NCBI RefSeq assembly: GCF_900112685.1
Contig: NZ_FOMS01000001.1
Location: 62,001 to 126,000 of the forward strand
DNA from: Roseivivax sediminis
GTDB taxonomy: Bacteria > Pseudomonadota > Alphaproteobacteria > Rhodobacterales > Rhodobacteraceae
Length of the DNA stretch: 64,000 nucleotides
Reading direction: 5' to 3'
Of this stretch, positions 14,970-30,544 are shown one piece after another. Positions within the stretch are counted from its first letter, which is position 1; the number at the start of each line of letters is the position of its first letter. Position numbers and translations under genes: made by a program. The notes beneath the pieces were generated by a model. That model was given only the letters and a program-made list of their open reading frames with translations. It made no database searches and was not told where the DNA came from.

Positions 14970-16388
14970 ATGACCTTCGCGATCCCGTTCGACAACAGTT
15001 ACGCCGCCCTGCCCCCGGGCTTCTACTCTCGCCTCGACCCCAAGCCCGTGGCGCAGCCGTCGCTCGTCGCCTGGAACCGGCCACTGGCGGATACGCTCGG
15101 CATCGGCGAGGCGGATGATGCCACGCTCGCCCGCGTCTTCTCGGGCTCCGAGGTGCCCTCGGGCGCGGCGCCGCTGGCGCAGCTCTATGCCGGGCACCAG
15201 TTCGGCCAGTTCAACCCGCAGCTCGGCGACGGCCGCGCGCATCTCCTGGGCGAGGTGATCGGCACCGACGGGGTCCGCCGCGACATCCAGCTCAAGGGCT
15301 CCGGTCCCACGCCGTATTCGCGCATGGGCGATGGCCGCGCCTGGCTCGGCCCGGTGCTGCGCGAATACGTGGTGTCCGAGGCGATGCACGCCCTCGGCAT
15401 CCCCACCACCCGCGCCCTCGCCGCCGTCCGCACCGGCGAGGAGGTCGTGCGCGAGGCGCCGCTGCCCGGCGCCGTCCTCACCCGCGTCGCGCGCAGCCAC
15501 ATCCGTGTCGGCACCTTCCAGATCTTCGCCGCGCGCCAGGACATCGAGGCGCTGCGCGCCCTCTACGACTACACGGTCGACCGCCACTACCCAGACGTGA
15601 CCGACCCCGCCGATCTGCTGCAGCGCGTGATCGACCGGCAGGCCGCGCTCGTCGCGCAATGGATGAGCGTCGGTTTCATCCACGGCGTGATGAACACCGA
15701 CAATTGCACGCTCTCGGGCGAGACCATCGATTACGGCCCCTGTGCCTTCATGGACGACTACCACCCCGACACGGTGTTTTCCTCCATCGACCGGTTCGGC
15801 CGCTACGGCTTTGCCAACCAGGCCGACATCATCGTGTGGAACATGGCGCAGCTGGCCACCTCGCTTCTCCAGCTCATGCCCGACCCCGAGGCGTCGGTGG
15901 AGCCGTTCACCCGGCAGGTCCACGCCATGCCCGACGTGATCCGCGCGGAGTGGGAACATCGCTTCGCCGCCAAGATCGGCATCTCGACCCCGCGCGACGG
16001 GGACGCGACGCTCGTCGCCGATCTTCTGACCCGGATGCAGGCGAACCAGGCCGATTTCACCAACACCTTCCGGGGCCTGCTGACCGGCACCGCGCGCGAC
16101 AATTTCACCGACCGCGCGGCCTTCGACGAATGGGAACCGCGCTGGCGCGCCCGCATTGAGGAAGAGCCGGAGCCAGAGGCGCAGATGGCCCGGTCCAATC
16201 CGGCGTTCATCCCGCGCAACCACCGGATCGAGCAGATGATCGAGGCGGCGACCGAAGGCGACGACGCCCGCTTCCACCGGCTGAACGCCGTTCTGGCCCG
16301 CCCCTACGAGGACCAGCCCGGCGCCGAGGACCTGACCCGCGCGCCGCTTCCCGCGGAGCGCGTGCCGGCCACCTTCTGCGGCACCTGA
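14970..16388 (+). CDS. selO: protein adenylyltransferase SelO (YdiU)
   Basis: A 472-residue pseudokinase-fold enzyme that transfers AMP from ATP to Ser/Thr/Tyr of target proteins and is linked to redox stress. Visible family features are KGSGPTPYSRMGDGRA (109-124) with the ATP-contacting Lys109, the catalytic-loop equivalent MNTDN (241-245), the DYGPCAFMD segment (254-262) with metal-binding Asp254, and a C-terminal Cys in FCGT. The start is the ATG in MTFAIPFDNSYAALP, the usual N-terminus. Confidence 0.94.
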   Translation: MTFAIPFDNSYAALPPGFYSRLDPKPVAQPSLVAWNRPLADTLGIGEADDATLARVFSGSEVPSGAAPLAQLYAGHQFGQFNPQLGDGRAHLLGEVIGTDGVRRDIQLKGSGPTPYSRMGDGRAWLGPVLREYVVSEAMHALGIPTTRALAAVRTGEEVVREAPLPGAVLTRVARSHIRVGTFQIFAARQDIEALRALYDYTVDRHYPDVTDPADLLQRVIDRQAALVAQWMSVGFIHGVMNTDNCTLSGETIDYGPCAFMDDYHPDTVFSSIDRFGRYGFANQADIIVWNMAQLATSLLQLMPDPEASVEPFTRQVHAMPDVIRAEWEHRFAAKIGISTPRDGDATLVADLLTRMQANQADFTNTFRGLLTGTARDNFTDRAAFDEWEPRWRARIEEEPEPEAQMARSNPAFIPRNHRIEQMIEAATEGDDARFHRLNAVLARPYEDQPGAEDLTRAPLPAERVPATFCGT

Positions 16389-16410: not shown

Positions 16411-16851
16411 TCAGCCGCCGGCGAGCCGTTCCGCCAGCGCGCGGATGCCGGCGGCGAAGGTCTCCTGCCCCACCGCCTGCCGGATCTCCGCCTCGTCCTC
16501 GGCGCCGACCTCGAAGGTCGCCCACCACTCGACGAACGTCGCGCCCCGCTCGGTCACCGGGGTGCAACGGAAGGTGGCGACGTAGTTCTCGATCGGCATC
16601 GGGGAGACGATGATCGAATAGGTGAACGCGTGGTCGAGATCGCTGAAGCTCAGCAGGCGCTCGCGTAGATGGCCACCATCGGTGAGGGTGAAATTGCGCA
16701 CGCAGCCGACCTGATCGGGCGGCAAGCCGTCCTCGATGGTGCTTTCGGCGATCCGGGGATGCCAGTCGCCATGACCGTTGAAGTCCCGCGCCAAGGCCCA
16801 GACCTTGTCCACGGGCGCCTCGATGATATCGCTGATATAGACCTTTGCCAT
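16411..16851 (-). CDS. SRPBCC family protein (polyketide cyclase-like)
   Basis: A 146-residue START/Bet v1-like single domain beginning KVYISDIIEAPVDKVWALARDF, typical of SRPBCC ligand-binding proteins. GAGGAGAAC precedes the ATG. It is the last gene of the leftward liv/UPF0261/TIM operon, 11 bases after the TIM-barrel gene. It may bind or convert a hydrophobic intermediate of that pathway. The true ligand is unknown. Confidence 0.85.
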   Translation of the reverse strand: MAKVYISDIIEAPVDKVWALARDFNGHGDWHPRIAESTIEDGLPPDQVGCVRNFTLTDGGHLRERLLSFSDLDHAFTYSIIVSPMPIENYVATFRCTPVTERGATFVEWWATFEVGAEDEAEIRQAVGQETFAAGIRALAERLAGG

Positions 16852-16862
16852 GTTCTCCTCCG

Positions 16863-17705
16863 TCACCGGGCCGCGCCGGGTTTCAATGCCTTGAACTCGC
16901 GCGTCTGGGCGATCAGCGCGTTCTCGGTCGGCAGCCGCTCCATGGAGCTTGCGCCGTAGAAGCCGTGGCACCCGGGGCAATTGTCCAGGATGAAGGCCGC
17001 GTCGTCCGGCATCGCGATCGGGCCGCCGTGGCAGATCACCATGACGTCGTCGCGCACCGTGCGGGCGGCGTCGGCGATGGCGTTGACCTCGTCCACGCAA
17101 TCCTCGAGCGTCAGGGCGGTTTCCGCGCCGATGGCGCCGCCGGTCGTCAGGCCCATATGGGCGACGACGATGTCGGCACCGGCGCGGGCCATGTCCTGCG
17201 CGTTGGCGGCATTGAAGACGTAAGGCGTGGTCAGCAGGTCCTTGCCCCGCGCGCGGGCGACGAGGTCGACCTCCAGCCCGTATCCCATGCCGGTCTCTTC
17301 GAGGTTGGCGCGGAAGGTCCCGTCGATCAGGCCCACGGTCGGGAAGTTCTGGATCCCGGAAAAGCCAACCGCGCTCAGCTGGTCGAGGAACCAGTCGAAG
17401 TTGCAGAACGGATCGGTCCCGTTGACCCCGGCGAGGACCGGCGTCTCGCGTACCACGGGCAGCACCTCGCGGGACATCTCCATCACCACGTCGTTGGCGT
17501 TGCCGTAAGCCAGGAGCCCGGCGAGAGAGCCGCGCCCGGCCATGCGGTAGCGCCCGGAATTGTAGATCACGATGAGGTCGATGCCGCCGGCCTCCTCGCA
17601 CTTGGCCGAAAGGCCGGTGCCGGCGCCGCCGCCGACGATGGGCCGGCCCTCGTCGATCATGCGGCGGAACTTGGCGAGGATCTCCTCGCGGGGGATGCGG
17701 GGCAT
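16863..17705 (-). CDS. TIM-barrel protein, phosphoenolpyruvate hydrolase-like family
   Basis: A 280-residue protein of the family called TIM-barrel signal transduction/PEP hydrolase-like. Markers are [22 protein letters not shown] (23-44), [10 protein letters not shown] (91-100), [15 protein letters not shown] (118-132), [10 protein letters not shown] and a late CHGGP. Its start codon overlaps the stop of the UPF0261 gene. In plant Tm-1 proteins the same two domains are fused in one chain, so the two products probably work together. The family also occurs as an N-terminal sensor of Fis-type regulators, as at 24456-26228 here. The reaction is not established. Confidence 0.85.
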
Positions 17706-18910
17706 CACTGACCTCCTGTCGTTGTCTCCCGCCAGGCCGAGACGAGCGCGTCGGCGAAGGCGGGATCGTTGATGTGATGGGGCACGCGGACAAGGCGGCG
17801 GGTCTGTGTCTGCTCCACCGTGGCCTCGAGCGCCTCGAAGAGGGCGGTCCGCGCGGCATCGTCGTGGAAGGCCGCGCCCGGCGCGTCGAGGGCGGAGATG
17901 CCGCCCTCGGGCAAGAGGAACCGCACAGGTCCCTCGCAGGCGTTGAGCTTCGCGCCCAGCCAGCGGCCCATCTCGGCGTTCTCTTCCGGCGTGGTCCGCA
18001 TCAGCGTGACCTGCGGGTTGTGTTCGTAGAAAAGCCGGCCGGCGTAGCGCTCCGGCACCGTGTCCGGAGCCCCGAAATTCACCATGTCGAGCGCCCCGAC
18101 GGAGCCGACATACGGCACCCGCGTGCGCGCGATGGCGCCAAGCCGGTCCTCGGTGGCGGGAAAGACGCCGCCGAACAGCAGATCGCAGATCTCGGTCGTG
18201 GTGGTGTCGATGACGCCCTCGACGAGGCCCGACTCCACCAGCTTCTCCATCGACTGCCCGCCGGTGCCGGTGGCGTGGAAGACGAGGCAGTCGTAGGTAT
18301 CCGACAGCCGCTCCACACTCTGGTTCACGCACGTCGTGGTGACGCCGAACATGGTCAGGCCGAGCGCCGGCTTGACGTCCGCCGCCGGCACCTCTGCGCG
18401 GGCCATGCCGGCGATGGCCCCGGCAGCGTTCGCGAGAACCCGGCGCGAGATGCGGTTGAGACCCGCGACGTCCGTGACCGAGTACATCATCGTCACGTCC
18501 GACGGCCCGACATAGGGGGCCACGTTGCCCGACGCGACGGTGGACACCATGAGCTTCGGCACCCCCACGTCGAGCGTGCGCATCGCCGGCGTGATGAGCG
18601 CCGTGCCGCCCGAGCCACCGATCCCGATCAGGCCCGCGAGGTCCTCGCGGCCGCGCGCGAACCGCTCGAACGCCTCTGCCATCGCCGCGACGGCGCTGCC
18701 GCGGTCGCCGGTGAAGACCGCGTCGGCGCCGTCCGGGTGGTGCGCCGCGACCTCGCGGGCCGGAATGTCGGCGCCGCTCGGCGGGCTTTCGGTGGTCGAC
18801 AGGTCCACGAGCGCGACCTCCGCACCCGCCGCGCGGATGCGGTCGCGGACGTAGTCGAGTTCAGGATATTTCGTGTCGCAGGTCCCTGCGAGGTAGATGC
18901 GCGTGGTCAT
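17705..18910 (-). CDS. UPF0261 / Tm-1-like ATP-binding protein
   Basis: A 401-residue protein of the UPF0261 family, the N-terminal half of plant virus-resistance protein Tm-1. Characteristic pieces are [16 protein letters not shown] at the N-terminus, [33 protein letters not shown] (about 94-126), the [10 protein letters not shown] segment, [14 protein letters not shown] and a C-terminal [14 protein letters not shown]. It has no membrane segment. It follows livF by 13 bases and overlaps the TIM-barrel gene by 1 base. No enzymatic activity is firmly known for the bacterial members. Confidence 0.88.
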
Positions 18911-18923
18911 CCTGTTTCCTCCC

Positions 18924-19637
18924 TCAAGCCTCGGCGGCCACACCGAGATAGCGGTTGCGCAGCGCGCGGTCGTTCAGCAGAGACTCCGCATCGGTCTCCA
19001 GCGCGATCTCGCCGTTCATCATCACCATGATCCGGTCGCTGACCTGCGTGGCGACGCTCAGGTTCTGCTCCACCAGCAGCAGCCCGACACCCGACCGGCC
19101 GATCTCGCGCAGAACCTCGACCACGTGATCGACGATCACCGGCGCCAGCCCCTCGGTCGGCTCGTCCATGACCAGAAGCCGCGGGTTCAGCAGCAGCGCG
19201 CGGGAGATCGCCAGCATCTGCTGCTCTCCGCCCGACAGCGCGCCGCCGCCGTTCTTGCGACGCTCCGCAAGGCGGGGGAAGGTGTCGTAGATACGCTCGA
19301 TCGTCCATTCGCCGCCGGGCTTTCCGACGAGCTTCAGGTGCTCCTCCACGCTGAGCGAGCGGTACACGCGGCGCCCCTGCGGCACGTAGCCCACCCCGGC
19401 GCGCGCCACCCTGTAGGCGCGGCGCCCGTTGAGCCGTTCGCCGCCGAGCCGGACCTCGCCGCGCGCGGCCGGAACAAGGCCCATGATCGCCTGGCAGAGC
19501 GTCGACTTGCCCATGCCGTTGCGGCCGACGAGGGACAGGGGCTCCGTCCCCGCCTCCAGCGACAGCCCGTGCAGGACGTGGCTGGAGCCGTAATAGACGT
19601 GCAGGTCCTCGACCTTCAGAAGCGGGTCATTTGCCAT
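18924..19637 (-). CDS. livF: branched-chain-amino-acid-type ABC transporter ATPase LivF
   Basis: A 237-residue ATPase with Walker [10 protein letters not shown] (38-46), signature LSGGEQQML, and Walker B LLVMDEP followed by [12 protein letters not shown], the hallmark of LivF proteins. With LivG it powers import through LivH/LivM. The start overlaps the 3' end of livG by 11 bases. Transporters of this type carry branched-chain amino acids but also urea, amides and other small organics. The local context points to a non-standard substrate. Confidence 0.92.
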
Positions 19638-20394
19638 GGCGGCCCATGTAGATGTCCTGGATGTCCTGGTTGGCCGAGATCTCGGCCGGTGTGCCTTCGG
19701 CCAGAAGGTGGCCGTTGTGCATGACGCTGACGTAGTCGACGGCCTTCAGCGCGATATCCAGATCGTGCTCGATCAGGATCAGCGTCAGATCGCGCGGAAG
19801 GTCGGCCAGCATGGCCACCAGCGACTCGCGCTCGCGGGTCGACAGGCCCGCCGCGGGTTCGTCCAGCAGCAGCAGTTTCGGCGGATGCGCCAGCGCCATG
19901 CCAAGCTCGAGCTGGCGCTGCTCGCCGTGGCTGAGTTCATTCGCCATCGTGTCGAGCCGGTCGGTCAGCCCCACCCGCTCGGCCAGCGCGTCGGTCTGCG
20001 CGCGGTCGGGCTGGTTTTCGGCCCGCTTCCAGATCGTCAGCCGCGGGCCCGTGGCGCCGCGGATCGCGACATAAAGGTTGTCTCTGACGGTCATGCCGCC
20101 GAAAACCAGCGATTTCTGGTAGGTGCGGCGCACCCCCGCCAGTACGCGCTTTTGCGGCGATAGCTCGGTGATGTCCTCTCCGAAGAGCCGGATATGCCCG
20201 GCGCTCGGGGGCAGATCGCCCGCGATCATGTTGAACAGCGTCGTCTTGCCTGCGCCGTTGGCGCCAAGCACCGCCCGGCGTTCTCCGGCCGAGACGCGCA
20301 AGGTCACGTCATCGACCGCCACGAGCGCGCCGAAGCGGCGGGTGAGGCCCTCGATCGCGAGGGCCTCCTCCGTAGTCTGGCGAGCCGCCTGCAT
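19627..20394 (-). CDS. livG: branched-chain-amino-acid-type ABC transporter ATPase LivG
   Basis: A 255-residue ATPase with Walker A GANGAGKTT, signature LSHGEQRQLELGMAL and Walker B LLLLDEPAAGL. The ATG (20394-20392) shares a base with the TGA of the binding-protein gene; an in-frame GTG three bases earlier is an equally possible start. GVRRTYQKSLVFGGMTVRDN is the Q-loop region typical of LivG. It is co-translated with its neighbours. Confidence 0.92.
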   Translation of the reverse strand: MQAARQTTEEALAIEGLTRRFGALVAVDDVTLRVSAGERRAVLGANGAGKTTLFNMIAGDLPPSAGHIRLFGEDITELSPQKRVLAGVRRTYQKSLVFGGMTVRDNLYVAIRGATGPRLTIWKRAENQPDRAQTDALAERVGLTDRLDTMANELSHGEQRQLELGMALAHPPKLLLLDEPAAGLSTRERESLVAMLADLPRDLTLILIEHDLDIALKAVDYVSVMHNGHLLAEGTPAEISANQDIQDIYMGRHGK

Positions 20395-21659
20395 CACGAC
20401 GGGCAGGACGGGTTTTCGCGGGACGGCAGACCAAGCTCCATGTAGGTCTCCCGGTCGAGCCCGAGATACTGGTCCACGCTCTCGATCCGTTCCAGCGGTT
20501 CGAGCGCGAGGGAACCGCCTTCCTGCTCCACCACCTCGTTGATGTAGATCGCGGCGGTCGCCTGCCGGTTCTCGTTGAGGCTCACGGTGCCCGTCGGGCT
20601 GGTGAACTCCAGGTTGGCAAGCGCTTCGTTGAACGCGGCGTGGTTGTCGGACAGGTCGCCCTCGACCTCCTGCAGTGCCAGCAGCGCGGCCTTCGTGTTG
20701 GTGTAGTAGTTCGACGCGAAGAGCGACGGCGACGGCAGGCCCTCGTCACCATAGTAGTCGCGGTAGAGTTGCTTGAACTCTTCCCACGCCTCGAGGTCGT
20801 CGTTGTCCGACACCGGGCCCGAGGACAGGATGCCGGGCAGAAGCTCGCGCGCCGGGCCCTGGGTGGTCAGCACGGTCTGGTCGGTCACGTTGGTACCGCC
20901 GACGATGGGAAGCTGCCCGCCCATCTGCGCGTATTGCGACAGGAAGTTCACCGCGTCCGAACCGCCGAGCACGACGTACATGCCGTCGATCTCTCCGGCT
21001 TCCAGCGGCAGCTGCGCGATCACCGAGGAATAGTCGTTGTTGCCGACGGGCGTGAAGTACTTGTCGGCCACGGTGCCCCCGGCCTCGCAGTAGGTGGCCA
21101 TGAAGCCGAAGATCTGCGCGTAGGGGAACGAGTAGTCCTCGGACACGATGACGATGTTGTCCCAGCCGCGCTCGTTCACGACGTACTCGCCCAGGGGCGC
21201 GGTCCATTGCGCGCCCTCGGTGTTGAAGCGGAAGAAGTTCTCGGCCGGGTCCACCAGCGTCGTCTCGATCGCCGCGGAGCCGCCGTTGAGGAACGTGGTG
21301 CCGGGCTGCTCCTTGGCGTATTGCGCGATCCGGATGCCTTCGGAGCCCGAGAGCGGCCCGACCATGATGTCGGCGCCGTCCTGCTCCACCAGGCGGCGGG
21401 CGGATTCGAGCGCGACGTCGGGGTTGCCGTCCGAGGACGCGGTGATGAACTCGATCGGGTGGCCGGCGATCTCGCCGCCGAACTCGTGGATCGCCAGCTC
21501 GACGCCGCGCAGGCCGTCCTCGCCCGGTGCCGCGAACGGCCCTTCGAGCGTGGCGAGCCCGCCGATGGTGATGGTCTCGCCGTCCTGCGCGAGCGCGGTG
21601 GAGCCCATGAGCGCGGCAAGCGTCGCCGCCGTGCCCAGCATGAAGCGTTGGGTGTTCAT
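20394..21659 (-). CDS. Liv-type periplasmic substrate-binding protein
   Basis: A 421-residue binding protein with signal peptide (1-24, ending STALAQ) and a strong GAGGAGGT site before the ATG. The type I periplasmic fold is indicated by GGLATLEGPFAAPGEDGLRGVELA and FITASSDGNPDVALESARRLVEQD, followed by MVGPLSGSEG and a C-terminal PSCPS that could form a disulphide. It defines the specificity of the LivHMGF importer. It lies between livM and livG, unlike the classical position at the operon front. Confidence 0.9.
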   Translation of the reverse strand: MNTQRFMLGTAATLAALMGSTALAQDGETITIGGLATLEGPFAAPGEDGLRGVELAIHEFGGEIAGHPIEFITASSDGNPDVALESARRLVEQDGADIMVGPLSGSEGIRIAQYAKEQPGTTFLNGGSAAIETTLVDPAENFFRFNTEGAQWTAPLGEYVVNERGWDNIVIVSEDYSFPYAQIFGFMATYCEAGGTVADKYFTPVGNNDYSSVIAQLPLEAGEIDGMYVVLGGSDAVNFLSQYAQMGGQLPIVGGTNVTDQTVLTTQGPARELLPGILSSGPVSDNDDLEAWEEFKQLYRDYYGDEGLPSPSLFASNYYTNTKAALLALQEVEGDLSDNHAAFNEALANLEFTSPTGTVSLNENRQATAAIYINEVVEQEGGSLALEPLERIESVDQYLGLDRETYMELGLPSRENPSCPS

Positions 21660-21673
21660 ATCGGGATACCTCC

Positions 21674-22675
21674 TCATTTTCCGATATCGTCGGTCTCTCG
21701 GGCGTCGCCGTCATTGCGGCGCGCCCATCCGGTCCCCCGCGTCCAGGCGCGGTGGACAAGGCCGGTCAGCCCGTCGGGCGAGAACAGCACGATGGCCAGG
21801 AAGATCAGGCCGATCAGCGTGTTGAACCGCTCGCGGGCGATGAAATCGATGGCGAAGTTGTCGACGACGGTGAACACGAACGCGCCGATATAGGCCCCGA
21901 TCGGGTGGCCGATGCCGCCGAGCACGCCGGCCATCAGCACGTCGATCACCGGGTTCAGAGCGACCGAGCCGGGCGAGATCGAGGCGTTCAGCCAGATGTT
22001 CAGGATGCCGCCGATCCCGGCGATGAACCCCGCGAGCCCGAAGGCCAGCACGCGCAGCAGCGGCACGTTGTAGCCCAGCGCACGCAGCCGGTCGGGTTCG
22101 TCCCGCAGCCCTTGCAGCGCCAGCCCGAAGGGTGTGCGCACGACATGGCGGACACCGAAATAGCATGCCGCGGCGAGAACGACGCTCATGTAGTAGAACG
22201 GCAAGTTCGCACCGAGGTCGAGGCCCAGGATCACCGGCGGCTGGACGTTGTTGAAGCCGGTATAGCCATTGAACAGGTCGTAGTTCTGCAGCGTCAGGAA
22301 GTAGAACGCCATCGCCACGGCGAGCGTGATCATCAGCGTGTAGATCCCCCGCGTGCGCACCGCGACGAGGCCGATCAGGAGCCCCGCCACCGTGGCGAGG
22401 CCGAGCGCGAGGATCAGTGCCAGCGGCCAGGGCAGCAGCAGGCCGACACCGCTCGTGGGCGCGGTGAAATAGGCGGTCGCGTAGCCCGCGACGCCCGCCA
22501 CACTCATCTGCGCGAGGCTGAGCATGCCGGTATAGGCGGTCAGGAAGACGAGGCTGAGGACGATGGTCCCGAAGCCCAGGGTGCGGCCGCCGATCTGCAC
22601 CAGCCAGAAGCTGTTGACGACGAAGGGATAGACCAGCAGCAGGGCGATCACGGCGAGGGGCAGGATCCAGCGCAT
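21674..22675 (-). CDS. livM: Liv-type ABC transporter permease LivM
   Basis: A 333-residue integral membrane protein with about ten hydrophobic helices and the LivM landmarks GMLSLAQMSVAGVAGY (about 55-70) and RDEPDRLRALGYNVPLLRVLAFGLAG. The start ATG overlaps the livH stop by one base. It forms the translocation pore with LivH. Confidence 0.92.
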   Translation of the reverse strand: MRWILPLAVIALLLVYPFVVNSFWLVQIGGRTLGFGTIVLSLVFLTAYTGMLSLAQMSVAGVAGYATAYFTAPTSGVGLLLPWPLALILALGLATVAGLLIGLVAVRTRGIYTLMITLAVAMAFYFLTLQNYDLFNGYTGFNNVQPPVILGLDLGANLPFYYMSVVLAAACYFGVRHVVRTPFGLALQGLRDEPDRLRALGYNVPLLRVLAFGLAGFIAGIGGILNIWLNASISPGSVALNPVIDVLMAGVLGGIGHPIGAYIGAFVFTVVDNFAIDFIARERFNTLIGLIFLAIVLFSPDGLTGLVHRAWTRGTGWARRNDGDARETDDIGK

Positions 22676-23562
22676 CAGGCGGCCCTCCCCAGCAGACCCT
22701 GCGGGCGCACGGCGAGCACGGCGACCATGATCGCGAAGGTGTAGACGATGCCGTAGGTCGGCGTATAGGCGAGCCCGTAGGTCTCGGCCATCGCCACCAG
22801 CAGCGCGCCGATCGCGGCGCCGGGGATCGACCCCATGCCGCCGACGATCACCACGATCAGCGACGACAGCAGGTAGCGCGCATCCTCGCCCGGCGAGACC
22901 GACAGGACCGACCCGCCGATCACCCCCGCCATGCCGGCCAGCCCCGCGCCGATGGCGAAAACGCCGACGAAGACGAGCGGGACGTTCACGCCCATCGCCT
23001 CCAGCATCCGGCGGTCATCGACACCGGCGCGGATCAGCATGCCGATGCGGGTGCGGTTGAGAATGAGCCAGAGCGCCACGCCGATCACAAGCGCGAAGCC
23101 GATCAGCATCAGCCGCGCCATCGCGTAGCGTCCCGCGACCGGCACCGGCACGAAGGTCGACACCGCCTCGGGCAGCGCGATCTGGTAGGCCGATCCGCCC
23201 CACTGGGCCAGCATCAGGTCCGCCGCGACGATGGACACGCCGATGGTCGCGAGCGCCTGTCGCAGGTCCTGCCCCTGCATCCAGGACAGGATCGACACCT
23301 GCAACGCGGCACCCGCAGCGGCCACGACCACACCGGCGGCGAGGATGCCGAGGATCCAGCTTCCCGTCGCCTCCGACACCTCGAACCCCACATAGGCCCC
23401 GAGCAGGTAGAGCGAGCCATGCGCCATGTTCACCACCCGCATCAGCCCGAAGATCAGGGAGAACCCGCTCGCCACGATGAAATACAGCGAGGCGAGCGTG
23501 AGCCCGTTCAGCGTGACGATGGCGAAGAGCCGCCAGTTGATGTCGGCCAGCGTCTCGATCAT
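22675..23562 (-). CDS. livH: Liv-type ABC transporter permease LivH
   Basis: A 295-residue membrane protein with LivH features: NGLTLASLYFIVASGFSLIFGLMRVVNMAHGSLYLLGAYVG near the N-terminus, RTRIGMLIRAGVDDRRMLEAMG in the central loop and GGMGSIPGAAIGA late. It is the first gene of the leftward operon that runs through livM, binding protein, livG, livF, UPF0261, TIM barrel and SRPBCC genes. Confidence 0.93.
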   Translation of the reverse strand: MIETLADINWRLFAIVTLNGLTLASLYFIVASGFSLIFGLMRVVNMAHGSLYLLGAYVGFEVSEATGSWILGILAAGVVVAAAGAALQVSILSWMQGQDLRQALATIGVSIVAADLMLAQWGGSAYQIALPEAVSTFVPVPVAGRYAMARLMLIGFALVIGVALWLILNRTRIGMLIRAGVDDRRMLEAMGVNVPLVFVGVFAIGAGLAGMAGVIGGSVLSVSPGEDARYLLSSLIVVIVGGMGSIPGAAIGALLVAMAETYGLAYTPTYGIVYTFAIMVAVLAVRPQGLLGRAA

Positions 23563-23830
23563 GGCCGGCCTGGCCCTTCAGTCGCGGTGCATAGCATTGG
23601 TGGCGTCTCCTCCCCTGTTTCCGGTGCGGGCACGACGCCTCCGTCCGGCAACGCGTCGCGCCGCTGGCCAGCCTCCCCTCTGGGATGCAGTCGATCCGGA
23701 TTGTTCTCCCGCATCGCGGTGTGGCAGAGCCACGTCCGTCCGCGATGACCCGAGCATTCCACGGCCCGAGACAGTCGCTCAACAGTCTCGGCACGCTATT
23801 TTGGGTAATATTGGGTAAACATGGCCTCGA
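23563..23830. promoter_or_regulatory. divergent control region of the liv operon
   Basis: A 268-base gap separates livH (leftward) from a TIM-barrel-like gene (rightward). It holds an inverted repeat CCGAGAC (23766-23772) / GTCTCGG (23785-23791). It also holds two direct copies of TTGGGTAA (23801-23808 and 23811-23818) exactly 10 bases apart, in an A+T-rich patch just before the rightward gene. Such helically phased repeats suggest a binding site for the Fis-HTH regulator encoded next door. I cannot assign promoter boxes firmly. Confidence 0.5.
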
Positions 23831-24466
23831 ATGCGTAGATTCTCCAAATGGCCGATCCAACGGCACACGGCAGCGTCGCGGTCCCTCCCCGATGCGCTCG
23901 TGACCGCATCGGTGGGGCTGCCCCCTGCGGAGATGCCGCCGGTCGTGGCGCTCCTTCTGCCGACTTTCGGCGGGGCGCAGGACGTTCTCGATGCGCTCGG
24001 GGAGGCGTGCCCGCAAGCGCTCGGCCTGTTCCTGGCCGATCCCAATCTGCTAACCGAACGGCTGTCCCGGCAGATCGCGCGCCACAGCCGCTGGGTGTGC
24101 AACCTGCCCAGCGTCGGGCAGCACGAACACGCGTTCCGGCGCTACCTGTCGGAGGTGGACCTCGACCACGGGCGCGAGATGCGCGTGCTGACCGATCTCG
24201 CCGCGGCGGGGCTGTCGACGATCGCCACCGTCTCGACCCCGCGCGACGTGGATGCGGCGCTGTCGGCAGGGCCCTCGGCGCTTCTCGTGGTGCCGCCCGT
24301 GCCCGACTTCGTCACCGGCGCGGTGCCGCTGGCGCGACGGGCGGCGCTTGAGCGCTCGGTCGCCGCGCAGAGCGACGCTCTGCCGATCCTCGGCCTGCGC
24401 GCGCCCGGAGAGGACGCGCTCGGCCTTGACGCCGCCCTCCTGCCCCCGTCCGGGATCAGTCTTTGA
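23831..24466 (+). CDS. half-length homologue of the PEP hydrolase-like TIM barrel
   Basis: A 211-residue protein. Its central part aligns by eye with the TIM-barrel protein at 16863-17705: CNLPSVG (90-96) corresponds to QNFPTVG. Both are followed by a helix segment at the same spacing (HAFRRYL versus GTFRANL), and SAGPSALLVVP corresponds to [11 protein letters not shown]. The N-terminal strand with the GGGAGTG motif and the C-terminal GGP segment are missing, so the barrel is incomplete and catalysis is doubtful. It is divergent from livH and its stop overlaps the 3' end of the regulator by 11 bases. A regulatory or partner subunit is possible. The start codon is uncertain. Confidence 0.65.
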   Translation: MRRFSKWPIQRHTAASRSLPDALVTASVGLPPAEMPPVVALLLPTFGGAQDVLDALGEACPQALGLFLADPNLLTERLSRQIARHSRWVCNLPSVGQHEHAFRRYLSEVDLDHGREMRVLTDLAAAGLSTIATVSTPRDVDAALSAGPSALLVVPPVPDFVTGAVPLARRAALERSVAAQSDALPILGLRAPGEDALGLDAALLPPSGISL

Positions 24467-26228
24467 GCCCCAGTCGCGCCATTCGGTTGTAGAGCGTCTT
24501 GCGCGAGATGTGCAGCGCCTCGGCCGTGCGGCCGCGATGAAAGTCGTTGCGCCAGAGCGCTTCCACGATTTGCCGCTTCTCGAGGTCGGCGGCCGTCTCT
24601 GGCGGCGGTCGCGCCGCTTCGCCGTCATCGAGGAAGGCGGCGATTTCGGTGCCGCCGACGTCGCCGGCGGCACCGCGTGCCGCGAGGCGCCCGATCACGC
24701 GGGCAAGCTCCGCCTCGTTGCCCGGCCAGGGATGGCGCCGCAACCGCTCCAGCGCGCCGGCGCCGAGCGGCGGCAGATCGGCGGCGTCCAGACCCGCTTC
24801 GGCCGCGAGCGCCGCCATGACCTCGGACAGATCCTCGACGCGCTGTCGCAGCGGCGGCAGCCGCACCGTCCACCCCGACAGCAGCGCAACGAGGTCCGGG
24901 TGCAGATCATCCGGCAGGAGCGGCTCGTCCGAGCCACGCTCGAACAGGAAGATCACCCGTGCCGTGACCCTTATGCGGCGACGACGGCGCGACGTCACCA
25001 GCGCGCCGCTCGCGAGGCTGCGCGCCAGCCGCTGCTGCAGCGACGGCAGCGCCCGGTCGATGTCGCGCACGATGATGGTCTCGCAGCCGGGCGCCGTCAG
25101 AAGGCCGGCCTCGTTGCCGCCCTCCGCGTCGTGCCCGAACAGCCGCCGGGACAGGCGCGGGCCCGGGTCTGTGCGGCCATCGACCTGCGGCACGTCTCGC
25201 CGCCGCCGGTCGAGCGCCGAGAGCACCGGCGCCAGCGGCATGCCCCGCTCCAGCGTCACCGCCAGCGACCGGCGCGCGCGCGACAGCGCCCCGAGATGCT
25301 CCAGGCAAGCCAGGACGGGCTTCGAGCGTCCGGAGAATCCGTGACCCCTTCCCCATCGCAGAAGCGCCTCCTGCCGCTGCGTCAGCTCGTCCTGCCGGCG
25401 GCCGGCCTGCCGGTAGCCGGCGATCCGGTTGGTCACCGATTCCTCGTAGGGCATCCGGTCGAGCGTCGAGCCGCCGACATAGCCGTCGAGGGTGGCGACG
25501 CGGGCGACATGCCCCAGGTCCTCGGCCGAGACCACCGGCCCGCCCTCCAGCAGGATCCGCGCGCCGGGATGGATGCGGCGCACGAGCGCGGCGTAGTCGC
25601 GCGCGATCAGGCCGACTTCCTCGAGCGAGGCACGCCGCGCATGGCCAAGAGAGCCGCCGGCGTTCCAGCCGAAATTCAGCAGGATCATGTCGAGCCCCGC
25701 CTCGGCGGCCGCCTGCGCATGCTCGCGTGCCCCGCAATAATAGAGCGCCCGGTAGCCGGCCGCCTGCACCCGCGCGAGCGTCTCGATCTCGCGGCGAAAC
25801 CCCCGTCCGGCCCGGTCCAGCATCTGCCGCATCGCCCGCGGCATTAGCGTGGCATTGGGAAAATTCACGGCGCCGGCAAAGCCTTGCTCGGCCACACGGT
25901 CGAGCGCCGCCTCCGGCGTGAAGTCCGGATCCCAGCAATTGACTCCCAGAAGAACCGGCACCGAAACCCGCGGCAGAATCTCCCGGGCCGCGAACGCATC
26001 TGTCATCGCGCTGGCCGCGTGACAGGGCAACATGCCGGCGATCGACGGTGCGCCCATGTTGCGCATCCGCGCCGCGTTGACCGCCAGGAGCAGATCGGCG
26101 CCGCCGACCTCCGCGGTCTGCGCGGCGATCCCGCTTCCCACGGCAGCGCCGATCAGCAGGCGTCCGGATGTCGACGGCATCATGCGCCGAGAGTGCACCG
26201 AAATCGCCCCCCGGGTCGAGCACCCCAA
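24456..26228 (-). CDS. TIM-barrel sensor / degenerate AAA+ / Fis-HTH transcriptional regulator
   Basis: A 590-residue fusion. Residues about 20-270 are a TIM barrel of the PEP hydrolase-like family (GAAVGSG at 28-33, LLGVNCWDP at 93-101, VNFPNAT at 121-127, EGGP at 228-231). Residues about 300-520 resemble the AAA+ domain of sigma-54 activators (RRLFGHD 361-367, VRLPPLRQRVEDL 455-467, WPGNEAEL 501-508). However, there is no Walker A motif and no GAFTGA loop. Residues 551-588 form a Fis-type HTH (AEALHISRKTLYNRMARLG). It probably binds DNA and senses a metabolite, but should not remodel sigma-54 polymerase. TTG at 26228 is chosen because GGGAGGG lies 5 bases upstream; an internal ATG at 26183 is an alternative. 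Confidence 0.85.
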   Translation of the reverse strand: MGCSTRGAISVHSRRMMPSTSGRLLIGAAVGSGIAAQTAEVGGADLLLAVNAARMRNMGAPSIAGMLPCHAASAMTDAFAAREILPRVSVPVLLGVNCWDPDFTPEAALDRVAEQGFAGAVNFPNATLMPRAMRQMLDRAGRGFRREIETLARVQAAGYRALYYCGAREHAQAAAEAGLDMILLNFGWNAGGSLGHARRASLEEVGLIARDYAALVRRIHPGARILLEGGPVVSAEDLGHVARVATLDGYVGGSTLDRMPYEESVTNRIAGYRQAGRRQDELTQRQEALLRWGRGHGFSGRSKPVLACLEHLGALSRARRSLAVTLERGMPLAPVLSALDRRRRDVPQVDGRTDPGPRLSRRLFGHDAEGGNEAGLLTAPGCETIIVRDIDRALPSLQQRLARSLASGALVTSRRRRRIRVTARVIFLFERGSDEPLLPDDLHPDLVALLSGWTVRLPPLRQRVEDLSEVMAALAAEAGLDAADLPPLGAGALERLRRHPWPGNEAELARVIGRLAARGAAGDVGGTEIAAFLDDGEAARPPPETAADLEKRQIVEALWRNDFHRGRTAEALHISRKTLYNRMARLGLKD

Positions 26229-29698: not shown

Positions 29699-30544
29699 TC
29701 AGGCGGCCGTCACTTCCTGGCGCTGCGTGCCCAGGGTCTCGATCGTCACTTCCATGACGTCGCCGGCCTTGAGGAAGCGCTGTGGCTTCATGCCCATGCC
29801 GACGCCTTCGGGCGTGCCGGTGGCGATGATGTCGCCCGGCACCAGCTTCATGAACTGGCTCATGTAGGACACGATATGCGCCACGCCGAAGATCATGTCC
29901 GAGGTCGACGAATCCTGCATCACCTGGCCGTTCAGCGTCAGCGAACAGGCCAGCGCCTGCGGGTCCGGCACCTCGTCCGCGGTCACCAGCCACGGCCCGG
30001 TCGGCCCGAAGGTCGGCGCCGACTTGCCCTTGACCCACTGGCCGCCGCGCTCGATCTGGAATTCGCGCTCGGAGACGTCGTTGATCACGCAATAGCCGGC
30101 GACCTTCGACAGCGCCTCGGCCTCGGAAACGTAGAGGCACTCCTCCCCGATCACCACGCCGAGTTCGACCTCCCAGTCGCCCTTCTTCGAGCCCTTGGGC
30201 AGGACGACCTTGTCGAACGGGCCGCTGAGCGCGGTGCTCGCCTTGGAAAACAGGATAGGCTCCTCGGGCTCCGCCGCTCCGGTTTCTGCCGCGTGCTTGG
30301 AATAGTTCAGTCCGATGCAGTGGAAATTCGGCACCGACGCGAGGCACGCGCCGATCCGGCCCGGCGCGTCCACCACCGGCAGGCTGCCGATGTCGAGCGC
30401 GCGAATCCGGTCGAGCGCATCTAGCGACACGCCCGCGCCGGCGAAATCGGGCACGCCCGCACCGGACAGATCGCGCACGTTGCCGTCGGCATCGAGCAGC
30501 CCCGGTTTCTCCTGCCCCTCGGGGCCGAACCGCAGTAGTCTCAT
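29699..30544 (-). CDS. fumarylacetoacetate hydrolase family protein
   Basis: A 281-residue FAH-fold enzyme. The C-terminal catalytic domain shows FHCIGLNYSKHAAE, the metal-binding DWEVELGVVIG (Glu-x-Glu), INDVSEREFQ and IATGTPEGVGMGM. FAH relatives cleave C-C bonds of diketo acids. Beside sugar-acid dehydrogenases, a 2,4-diketo-3-deoxy-sugar-acid hydrolase (as in the L-fuconate/L-rhamnonate oxidative routes) is the best guess. It lies 39 bases downstream of the gntR gene, probably in the same transcript and so under its autoregulation. Confidence 0.85.
   Translation of the reverse strand: MRLLRFGPEGQEKPGLLDADGNVRDLSGAGVPDFAGAGVSLDALDRIRALDIGSLPVVDAPGRIGACLASVPNFHCIGLNYSKHAAETGAAEPEEPILFSKASTALSGPFDKVVLPKGSKKGDWEVELGVVIGEECLYVSEAEALSKVAGYCVINDVSEREFQIERGGQWVKGKSAPTFGPTGPWLVTADEVPDPQALACSLTLNGQVMQDSSTSDMIFGVAHIVSYMSQFMKLVPGDIIATGTPEGVGMGMKPQRFLKAGDVMEVTIETLGTQRQEVTAA

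Follow-up and report, generated by a model that had tools for sequence, protein, structure and literature searches.

A putative enzyme-derived sensor and its shrunken barrel partner beside a Liv-type importer operon of Roseivivax sediminis

In this study, we analyzed a stretch of 64,000 nucleotides from Roseivivax sediminis (NZ_FOMS01000001.1, positions 62,001-126,000; hereafter the window), in which three proteins of the TIM-barrel family PF09370 sit together: an enzyme in the operon of a Liv-type importer, the N-terminal part of a regulator, and a small stand-alone barrel. We consider it rather probable that the locus is an enzyme-derived sensor controlling its own pathway. As an earlier note on this DNA had proposed, the liv importer genes and those for the UPF0261, PF09370 barrel and SRPBCC proteins form one minus-strand operon (in the order livH, livM, binding protein, livG, livF, UPF0261, PF09370 barrel and SRPBCC), whose adjoining genes overlap by up to 11 bp or stand up to 14 bp apart. 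The 211-residue small barrel is encoded upstream, on the plus strand, and the regulator gene converges on its gene (Table 1). The gene positions given previously hold; the start of the regulator, placed at 26228, is probably 26183, as judged from the gene call and the alignment with relatives.

That the three proteins belong to one barrel family, as had been claimed from their aligned landmarks, is borne out by profile searches, which found neither relative of the enzyme to be unrelated to it. A PF09370 search of the R. sediminis genome gave 432.2 bits for the enzyme, 200.7 for the regulator N-terminus and 23.5 for the small protein, and a Pfam scan gave 432.5, 198.2 and 24.9 bits (E 1.4e-5), respectively; at the curated cut-off of 33.8 bits, the enzyme and the regulator pass and the small barrel of the window falls below. 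Among four more small-barrel relatives in single Pfam scans, two pass (L170, 62.5 bits; L171, 36.8 bits) and two fail (29.4 and 29.5 bits). The profile of the small-barrel family (73 sequences) matches the enzyme profile over enzyme residues 45-187 with a probability of 99.3% (E 3.4e-20). This profile-profile comparison removes the doubt about the small protein that its sub-cut-off Pfam score had raised. The regulator-barrel profile matches the enzyme profile with E 5e-57. No further PF09370 or UPF0261 match was found in the R. sediminis genome at E 0.001.

Relatives came from two collections. A regulator-barrel scan with one genome per species gave 243 relatives, the best 80 of which are referred to here as the regulator loci (1.45 Mb). 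A genome survey at four taxonomic ranks found PF09370 in 16/100 (family), 18/249 (phylum), 40/385 (class) and 27/341 (order) genomes; these draws overlap, and the R. sediminis genome is in each. The 55 survey loci without a regulator are the control set (1.0 Mb). Some contigs of the first collection (L104, L116 and L131, judged by their length) also belong to survey genomes, and counts from the two are not additive.

The regulator has a PF09370 domain at its N-terminus and a Fis-type domain at its C-terminus (Pfam), and in its predicted structure the barrel resembles 2p10 (template modelling (TM) score TMt 0.76) and the AAA+ domain resembles FleQ (0.74). We compared 98 distinct enzymes with 79 full-length regulators, from 81 loci including the window. 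H226 is present in 96 of the enzymes and is glutamate in all 79 regulators, while H183, also present in 96 enzymes, is replaced by asparagine (71 regulators), aspartate (7) or valine (1). K35 (94/98 enzymes) is variable in the regulators, and Y48 (92/98) varies or changes. R54, N120, P122, E145, R257 and E261 are retained in 79/79 regulators. The window enzyme carries the near-invariant H183, H226 and K35. A preliminary count on 54 hand-picked regulators (the window and 53 of the 80 loci) agrees with these figures. Because the shared framework is kept while enzyme-specific residues, called catalytic from conservation alone, are replaced, the regulator barrel reads as a pseudo-enzyme. The pattern suggests a sensor that is a non-catalytic-looking copy of the enzyme: a family member by fold, which would not be expected to be an active enzyme. 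The earlier view of the regulator N-terminus as a copy of the operon's enzyme is thereby supported at the sequence level. A plasmid search with the regulator returned 240 records, 36 of them covering more than 80% of its length, and plasmid-borne relatives are found in Sinorhizobium, Mesorhizobium, Bradyrhizobium and Azospirillum, one of the plasmids being NC_000914 (S. fredii NGR234); the same search with the window small barrel gave no match.

The small protein had previously been described as a half-length barrel. It is a TIM-barrel relative, and the half size does not hold: it is more than half of a barrel, since its AlphaFold2 model (relatives' alignment as input; predicted local distance difference test score 93.8) has nine strands of at least three residues. 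By this prediction, and leaving barrel closure aside, the protein is a shrunken barrel. In a Foldseek search with the model, six chains of 2p10 rank first, with best TM scores of 0.58 (normalized to the query) and 0.47 (normalized to the target) and 166 alignment columns for the 211 residues. The protein retains the N-x-P and glutamate positions common to the enzyme and the regulator, and no DNA-binding part is recognizable in it.

The small barrel goes with the regulator; the earlier note had described it as related to the enzyme. In a six-frame profile search, it is present in 78 of the 80 regulator loci, for whose choice it was not a criterion. The two others lie at contig ends: in L150 the contig starts 1.7 kb ahead of the regulator, and in L174 it stops inside the regulator. 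The small barrel is found in none of the 55 control loci, 53 of which carry the full barrel enzyme and 49 UPF0261, while two are no more than weak hits. The search profile was built from 12 survey sequences, partly identical to genes later scored. With Pfam alone, the small barrel is found among the regulator genomes in 3/3 of the family, 3/4 of the phylum, 8/9 of the class and 6/6 of the order draws. The single miss, counted twice, is one genome (G134), where the small barrel was found by the custom profile trained on a sequence of that genome. A genome with a broken regulator copy (G295) has no small barrel. A regulator copy broken by stop codons was observed beside a UPF0261-PF09370 pair at L033:4898-5617, where the small barrel is absent. 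In the 78 loci, the small-barrel and regulator genes are convergent within 1.2 kb (57), on the same strand within 1.2 kb (4) or farther apart (17).

When eight loci were aligned from the small barrel to livH, a single well-kept block stood out, TTACCCA-N3-TTACCCA, with one locus off by one base. Allowing up to one mismatch, TTACCC-N4-TTACCC has 82 sites, spread over 68 of the 80 regulator loci, and none in the 55 controls. Six other spacings of TTACCC gave 1 to 6 sites in the regulator loci against 0 or 1 in the controls; for the reversed hexamer the counts were 0 to 11 and 1 to 6, respectively. The window holds one exact copy against 0.01 expected, 12 bp before the start codon of the small barrel. 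Among 67 relatives with a measured site, the distance between the repeat and the small barrel's profile start is 8 to 46 bp in 41 and 1.0 to 1.4 kb in 11, mostly with an intervening GntR gene; in 4 the repeat is more than 3 kb away on the other side of the gene. Such direct repeats, spaced by one helical turn, are not typical of a Fis-type dimer. Upstream of the regulator gene, no conserved motif was seen in five aligned loci. One exact and one 1-mismatch match besides the window's were found in the R. sediminis genome, against four for the reversed control; this is chance level, and they were rejected as a regulon. A locus whose regulator keeps the GAFTGA motif has TTACCC arrays opposed on both strands (L144:12463-12515); elsewhere the array is usually single.

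These data bear on what the small barrel does. It could be a positive co-sensor that joins the regulator barrel in a mixed oligomer and on which ligand binding or activation depends. Its near-perfect co-occurrence with the regulator would fit such a role, and its shared N-x-P and glutamate positions could be the oligomer face; in most loci, however, the start of its gene lies near the putative operator, which suits its repression under bound regulator. We regard the co-sensor as somewhat unlikely and favor a small barrel that holds the regulator off. It is also conceivable that the repeat is bound by another protein, of the GntR or AraC type or unlinked, and that the PF09370 regulator acts elsewhere. 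GntR genes are indeed present in 17 of the 80 loci, but since the site occurs in 68 of the 80, at least 51 site-bearing loci have no such gene. The site is absent from the 55 loci without a PF09370 regulator, and control loci with AraC genes have no site, which makes another binder improbable.

The spacing downstream of the repeat points to a sigma-70 promoter. TTG stands at +36 from the first base of the repeat in 48 of 82 sites (81 in relatives and one in the window), and at any other offset from 22 to 59 it never exceeds 6 sites. Within these 48 sites, positions 60-66 show an excess of A and T, and position 72 an excess of A. The offsets read as the -35, the -10 and the transcription start of a sigma-70 promoter; the repeat would then have its centre near -64. 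Class I sigma-70 activators have their site at a fixed distance upstream of a -35 box; a fixed spacing between the repeat and the putative -35 is seen in 48/82 sites. In 59 of 73 loci without GAFTGA other than the window, the repeat lies within 1650 bp before the small-barrel gene; 38 of these have TTG at +36, and 43 within one base.

The regulator could, alternatively, be an ordinary sigma-54 enhancer-binding protein (EBP). The window protein has the AAA+ fold and the Fis-type helix-turn-helix of such proteins, and 4 of 40 plasmid relatives among the matches listed are named so. Five relatives (from Chelativorans, Ancylobacter and three Ectothiorhodospiraceae) keep the GAFTGA loop, and their loci have sigma-54-like boxes on the operon strand matching 10, 10, 9, 9 and 8 of 10 positions, four of them good. 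However, GAFTGA is lost in 74 of the 79 full-length regulators, including the window protein, which also has no Walker A motif; these losses agree with the sigma-70 reading of the promoter. In the 420 bp before the small-barrel gene, where the boxes of the five lie, boxes of at least 9/10 occur in 1 of the 73 other loci (shuffle rate 0.007 per region), a figure that is only roughly comparable because in some layouts the operon promoter is not in this stretch. In the window, a sigma-54 promoter was rejected, as the best match (8/10) faces away from the liv operon and none of at least 9 is present on the operon strand. An ordinary sigma-54 EBP is therefore very improbable in the window. In the regulator-barrel tree, the five GAFTGA keepers branch near the base, and because their grouping is weak (65/0), a change from sigma-54 to sigma-70 is the likely direction and is put no more strongly.

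The UPF0261 protein carries both PF06792 and PF23189 and resembles the N-terminal domain of plant Tm-1 (3wry) and 9mpy, a UPF0261 domain-containing protein; the SRPBCC protein is of the Polyketide_cyc2 type (Pfam). In 44 of 106 UPF0261-cluster proteins, LivF is fused to UPF0261 (by length; domains verified on one), which ties UPF0261 to the importer. Fusions of about 736 residues occur in L026-L030 and L047-L076 (e.g., L066:5841-8051), in a cluster of 24 survey loci. The binding protein scores 27.8 bits with the LivJ/LivK-type model (NCBIfam PRK15404; cut-off 477) and 52.6 bits with the urea-type (UrtA) model (cut-off 492.75). By these scores, it is probably not specific for ordinary leucine, isoleucine or valine, a specificity that would have spoken against the earlier proposal. 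Six other stretches of the R. sediminis genome match PRK15404, none over the cut-off, and the window gene is not among the matches listed. An ordinary branched-chain amino-acid importer standing by chance beside unrelated genes is thus hardly credible: Liv-type components are present, but the binding protein is far below the LivJ/LivK-type cut-off, that model matches six other genome stretches, and LivF is fused to UPF0261 in so many relatives.

UPF0261 and the barrel also occur together well beyond these loci. COG5564 is, as we take it, the PF09370 barrel. In the available excerpts of a fungal co-occurrence study, the COG5441-COG5564 pair ranked third (PMC8963296), and excerpts of another report that UPF0261 and the barrel co-occur in 491 of 504 bacterial genomes with the barrel and that their distances correlate, indicating co-evolution (PMC5028733). 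The UPF0261 gene BMEII0128 of Brucella appears as attenuated in a signature-tagged mutant screen (excerpts of PMC2364660). Literature searches on PF09370, UPF0261, COG5441, COG5564, y4oU, y4oV, y4pA, 9MPY, Mll9387 and At5g66420 found no function, and neither a substrate nor a reaction for either family, in line with the earlier note, to which both had appeared undescribed; the available parts of PMC6867892, PMC2364660, PMC12613988, PMC9069715, PMC8963296 and PMC3084825 likewise give no function for UPF0261 or PF09370.

Neighbouring genes vary from locus to locus and include a CO-dehydrogenase-like molybdenum hydroxylase with MoxR and CoxE, flotillin, a zinc alcohol dehydrogenase and an FAA hydrolase, and in other loci Gfo/Idh and cupin genes with sugar-type importers. 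Because they differ by locus, no single compound class follows from them, and the closest solved chains of the binding protein gave no usable ligand information. The neighbours favor an involvement of the operon in using oxygenated carbon compounds, without pointing to a particular one. As a guess that we hold weakly, UPF0261 would use ATP to activate the substrate, and the barrel would act on the activated form, which the regulator would read. UPF0261 is presumably ATP-binding, by homology to Tm-1, and the glycine motifs of barrel strands 7 and 8 recall, in our view, phosphate-binding barrels; these two points are a candidate basis for a regulator that would read a phosphorylated intermediate.

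We propose, as the reading we find reasonably likely, a substrate-induced operon for uptake and conversion under an enzyme-derived switch. The Liv-type importer would bring in a small organic compound, to be converted by UPF0261 and the PF09370 enzyme, which plants have as a single fused protein. The regulator may sense this compound or a derived intermediate through its copy of the enzyme barrel, which appears to have kept the fold and parts of the pocket and to have lost the catalytic-looking residues. It would bind the two head-to-tail TTACCC half-sites, one helical turn apart and centred near -64, and, once bound, would recruit sigma-70 polymerase to the liv operon, as the site and its spacing suggest. 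The small barrel most likely binds the regulator and holds it off without ligand, and its own gene would be repressed once the operator is occupied. A fuller version, possible and advanced here only tentatively, is a three-copy circuit of an active enzyme, a dead enzyme acting as the sensor of an eroded EBP, and a miniature barrel that gates the sensor by replacing a full subunit in the oligomer; loss of its AAA+ machinery would have taken the regulator from sigma-54 to sigma-70, and the promoter would have swapped boxes beside the same kind of half-site.

Several points weigh against this proposal. The small-barrel gene lies more than 1.2 kb from the regulator in 17/78 loci, and its repressive role is drawn from gene layout alone. 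The repeat is missing at one mismatch in 12 of the 80 regulator loci, and in some of the 17 with a GntR gene this gene stands between the small barrel and the operator. At the promoter, 34/82 sites have no TTG at +36, the -10 region is poor in the window, and the sigma-54 comparison carries the layout limit given above. In two of the five GAFTGA loci, a repeat with one mismatch is present as well, though TTG is missing at +36. Finally, the loci are related to one another, so the counts are not independent events.

Table 1 Features of the locus in the window.
Feature	Position	Strand	Evidence
LivH-type permease, first gene of the operon	22675-23562	-	PF02653, 119 bits
LivM-type permease	21674-22675	-	PF02653, 108 bits
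Liv-type periplasmic binding protein, below LivJ/LivK and UrtA model cut-offs	20394-21659	-	PF13458, 197 bits; closest solved chain 4zpj, E 3e-38
LivG-type ATPase	19627-20397	-	PF00005, 106 bits
LivF-type ATPase (fused to UPF0261 in relatives)	18924-19637	-	PF00005, 91 bits
UPF0261 protein, homologous to plant Tm-1 (N-terminal part)	17705-18910	-	PF06792, 221 bits; PF23189, 303 bits; 3wry, E 5e-97
PF09370 enzyme (TIM barrel)	16863-17705	-	432 bits; 2p10, E 1e-124
SRPBCC protein (Polyketide_cyc2)	16411-16851	-	PF10604, 90 bits
Shrunken PF09370 barrel (predicted), partner gene of the regulator; 3' end overlaps the regulator gene	23831-24466	+	Pfam, profile, model, survey
Regulator: PF09370 sensor barrel (putative), eroded AAA+ domain, Fis-type helix-turn-helix	24456-26183	-	Pfam, alignment, model, residue counts
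Putative operator TTACCC-N4-TTACCC	23803-23818	-	Sole window match at one mismatch or fewer; conserved in relatives
Putative -35 (TTGAGC) of the liv operon promoter, 20 bp past the second repeat	23777-23782	-	TTG at identical distance in 48/82 sites
Putative weak -10 region	23753-23759	-	A/T enrichment at these offsets in 48 aligned sites; window match poor

Around the locus, a SelO-like gene (by eye; window 14970-16388) converges on the SRPBCC gene and bounds the operon, and an FAA-hydrolase-family gene (window 29699-30544) lies 3.5 kb past the regulator; survey loci such as L035 and L066 have members of its cluster after the operon. In several loci (L026, L027, L029 and others), the gene of a flotillin-like protein (529 to 1160 residues in the cluster) separates the PF09370 enzyme gene from one or two SRPBCC genes. 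In 13 survey loci, a CO-dehydrogenase-like molybdenum hydroxylase follows, with its cofactor-binding domains in separate genes and mostly with MoxR and CoxE.

Both families, the UPF0261/PF09370 pairing, the solved folds, the barrel-regulator architecture (in plasmid product names) and GAFTGA-less regulators are already known, and a Pfam note reportedly describes the same architecture. The small-barrel partner gene, the operator and the promoter switch seem new; literature searches found no small-barrel partner, residue switch, operator or promoter change, the repeat itself not having been searched for. Plant Tm-1 and Tm-1-like proteins, in which UPF0261 is fused to the PF09370 barrel, join the same two families as working partners, whereas in the window the two are encoded separately, within an importer operon that is accompanied by a regulator and a small barrel. 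An antiviral role is not implied. Mll9387 (PDB 2p10, 'putative phosphonopyruvate hydrolase') is the solved structure of the enzyme family. Its activity is a putative title name, of which literature searches found no test, and the hydrolase label of PF09370 ('PEP_hydrolase-like') is a name only. Yeast Gal3, a dead galactokinase, and ROK repressors are enzyme-derived sensors; there, as proposed here, the ligand is read by a relative of the pathway enzyme that has lost its catalytic activity, although the folds differ. We know of no miniature third copy among such sensors. GAFTGA-less NtrC proteins work at sigma-70 promoters, namely R. capsulatus NtrC, Caulobacter NtrC and V. cholerae VspR, according to the available excerpts of PMC10274813; they are likewise eroded EBPs and a precedent for sigma-70 regulation. 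They act via receiver domains or their sites, whereas the window sensor would be an enzyme-derived barrel with a stand-alone second barrel.

UPF0261 and its barrel partner are common to bacteria, archaea, fungi and land plants (excerpts of PMC5028733). A regulator with a defined putative operator turns the question of their substrate into a reporter screen, and a compound that switches on the TTACCC promoter should be a substrate or product of the family. If true, the proposal would be a clear case of an enzyme becoming a sensor, with a miniature barrel beside it, and of an EBP changing polymerase through the loss of GAFTGA and of the sigma-54 box.

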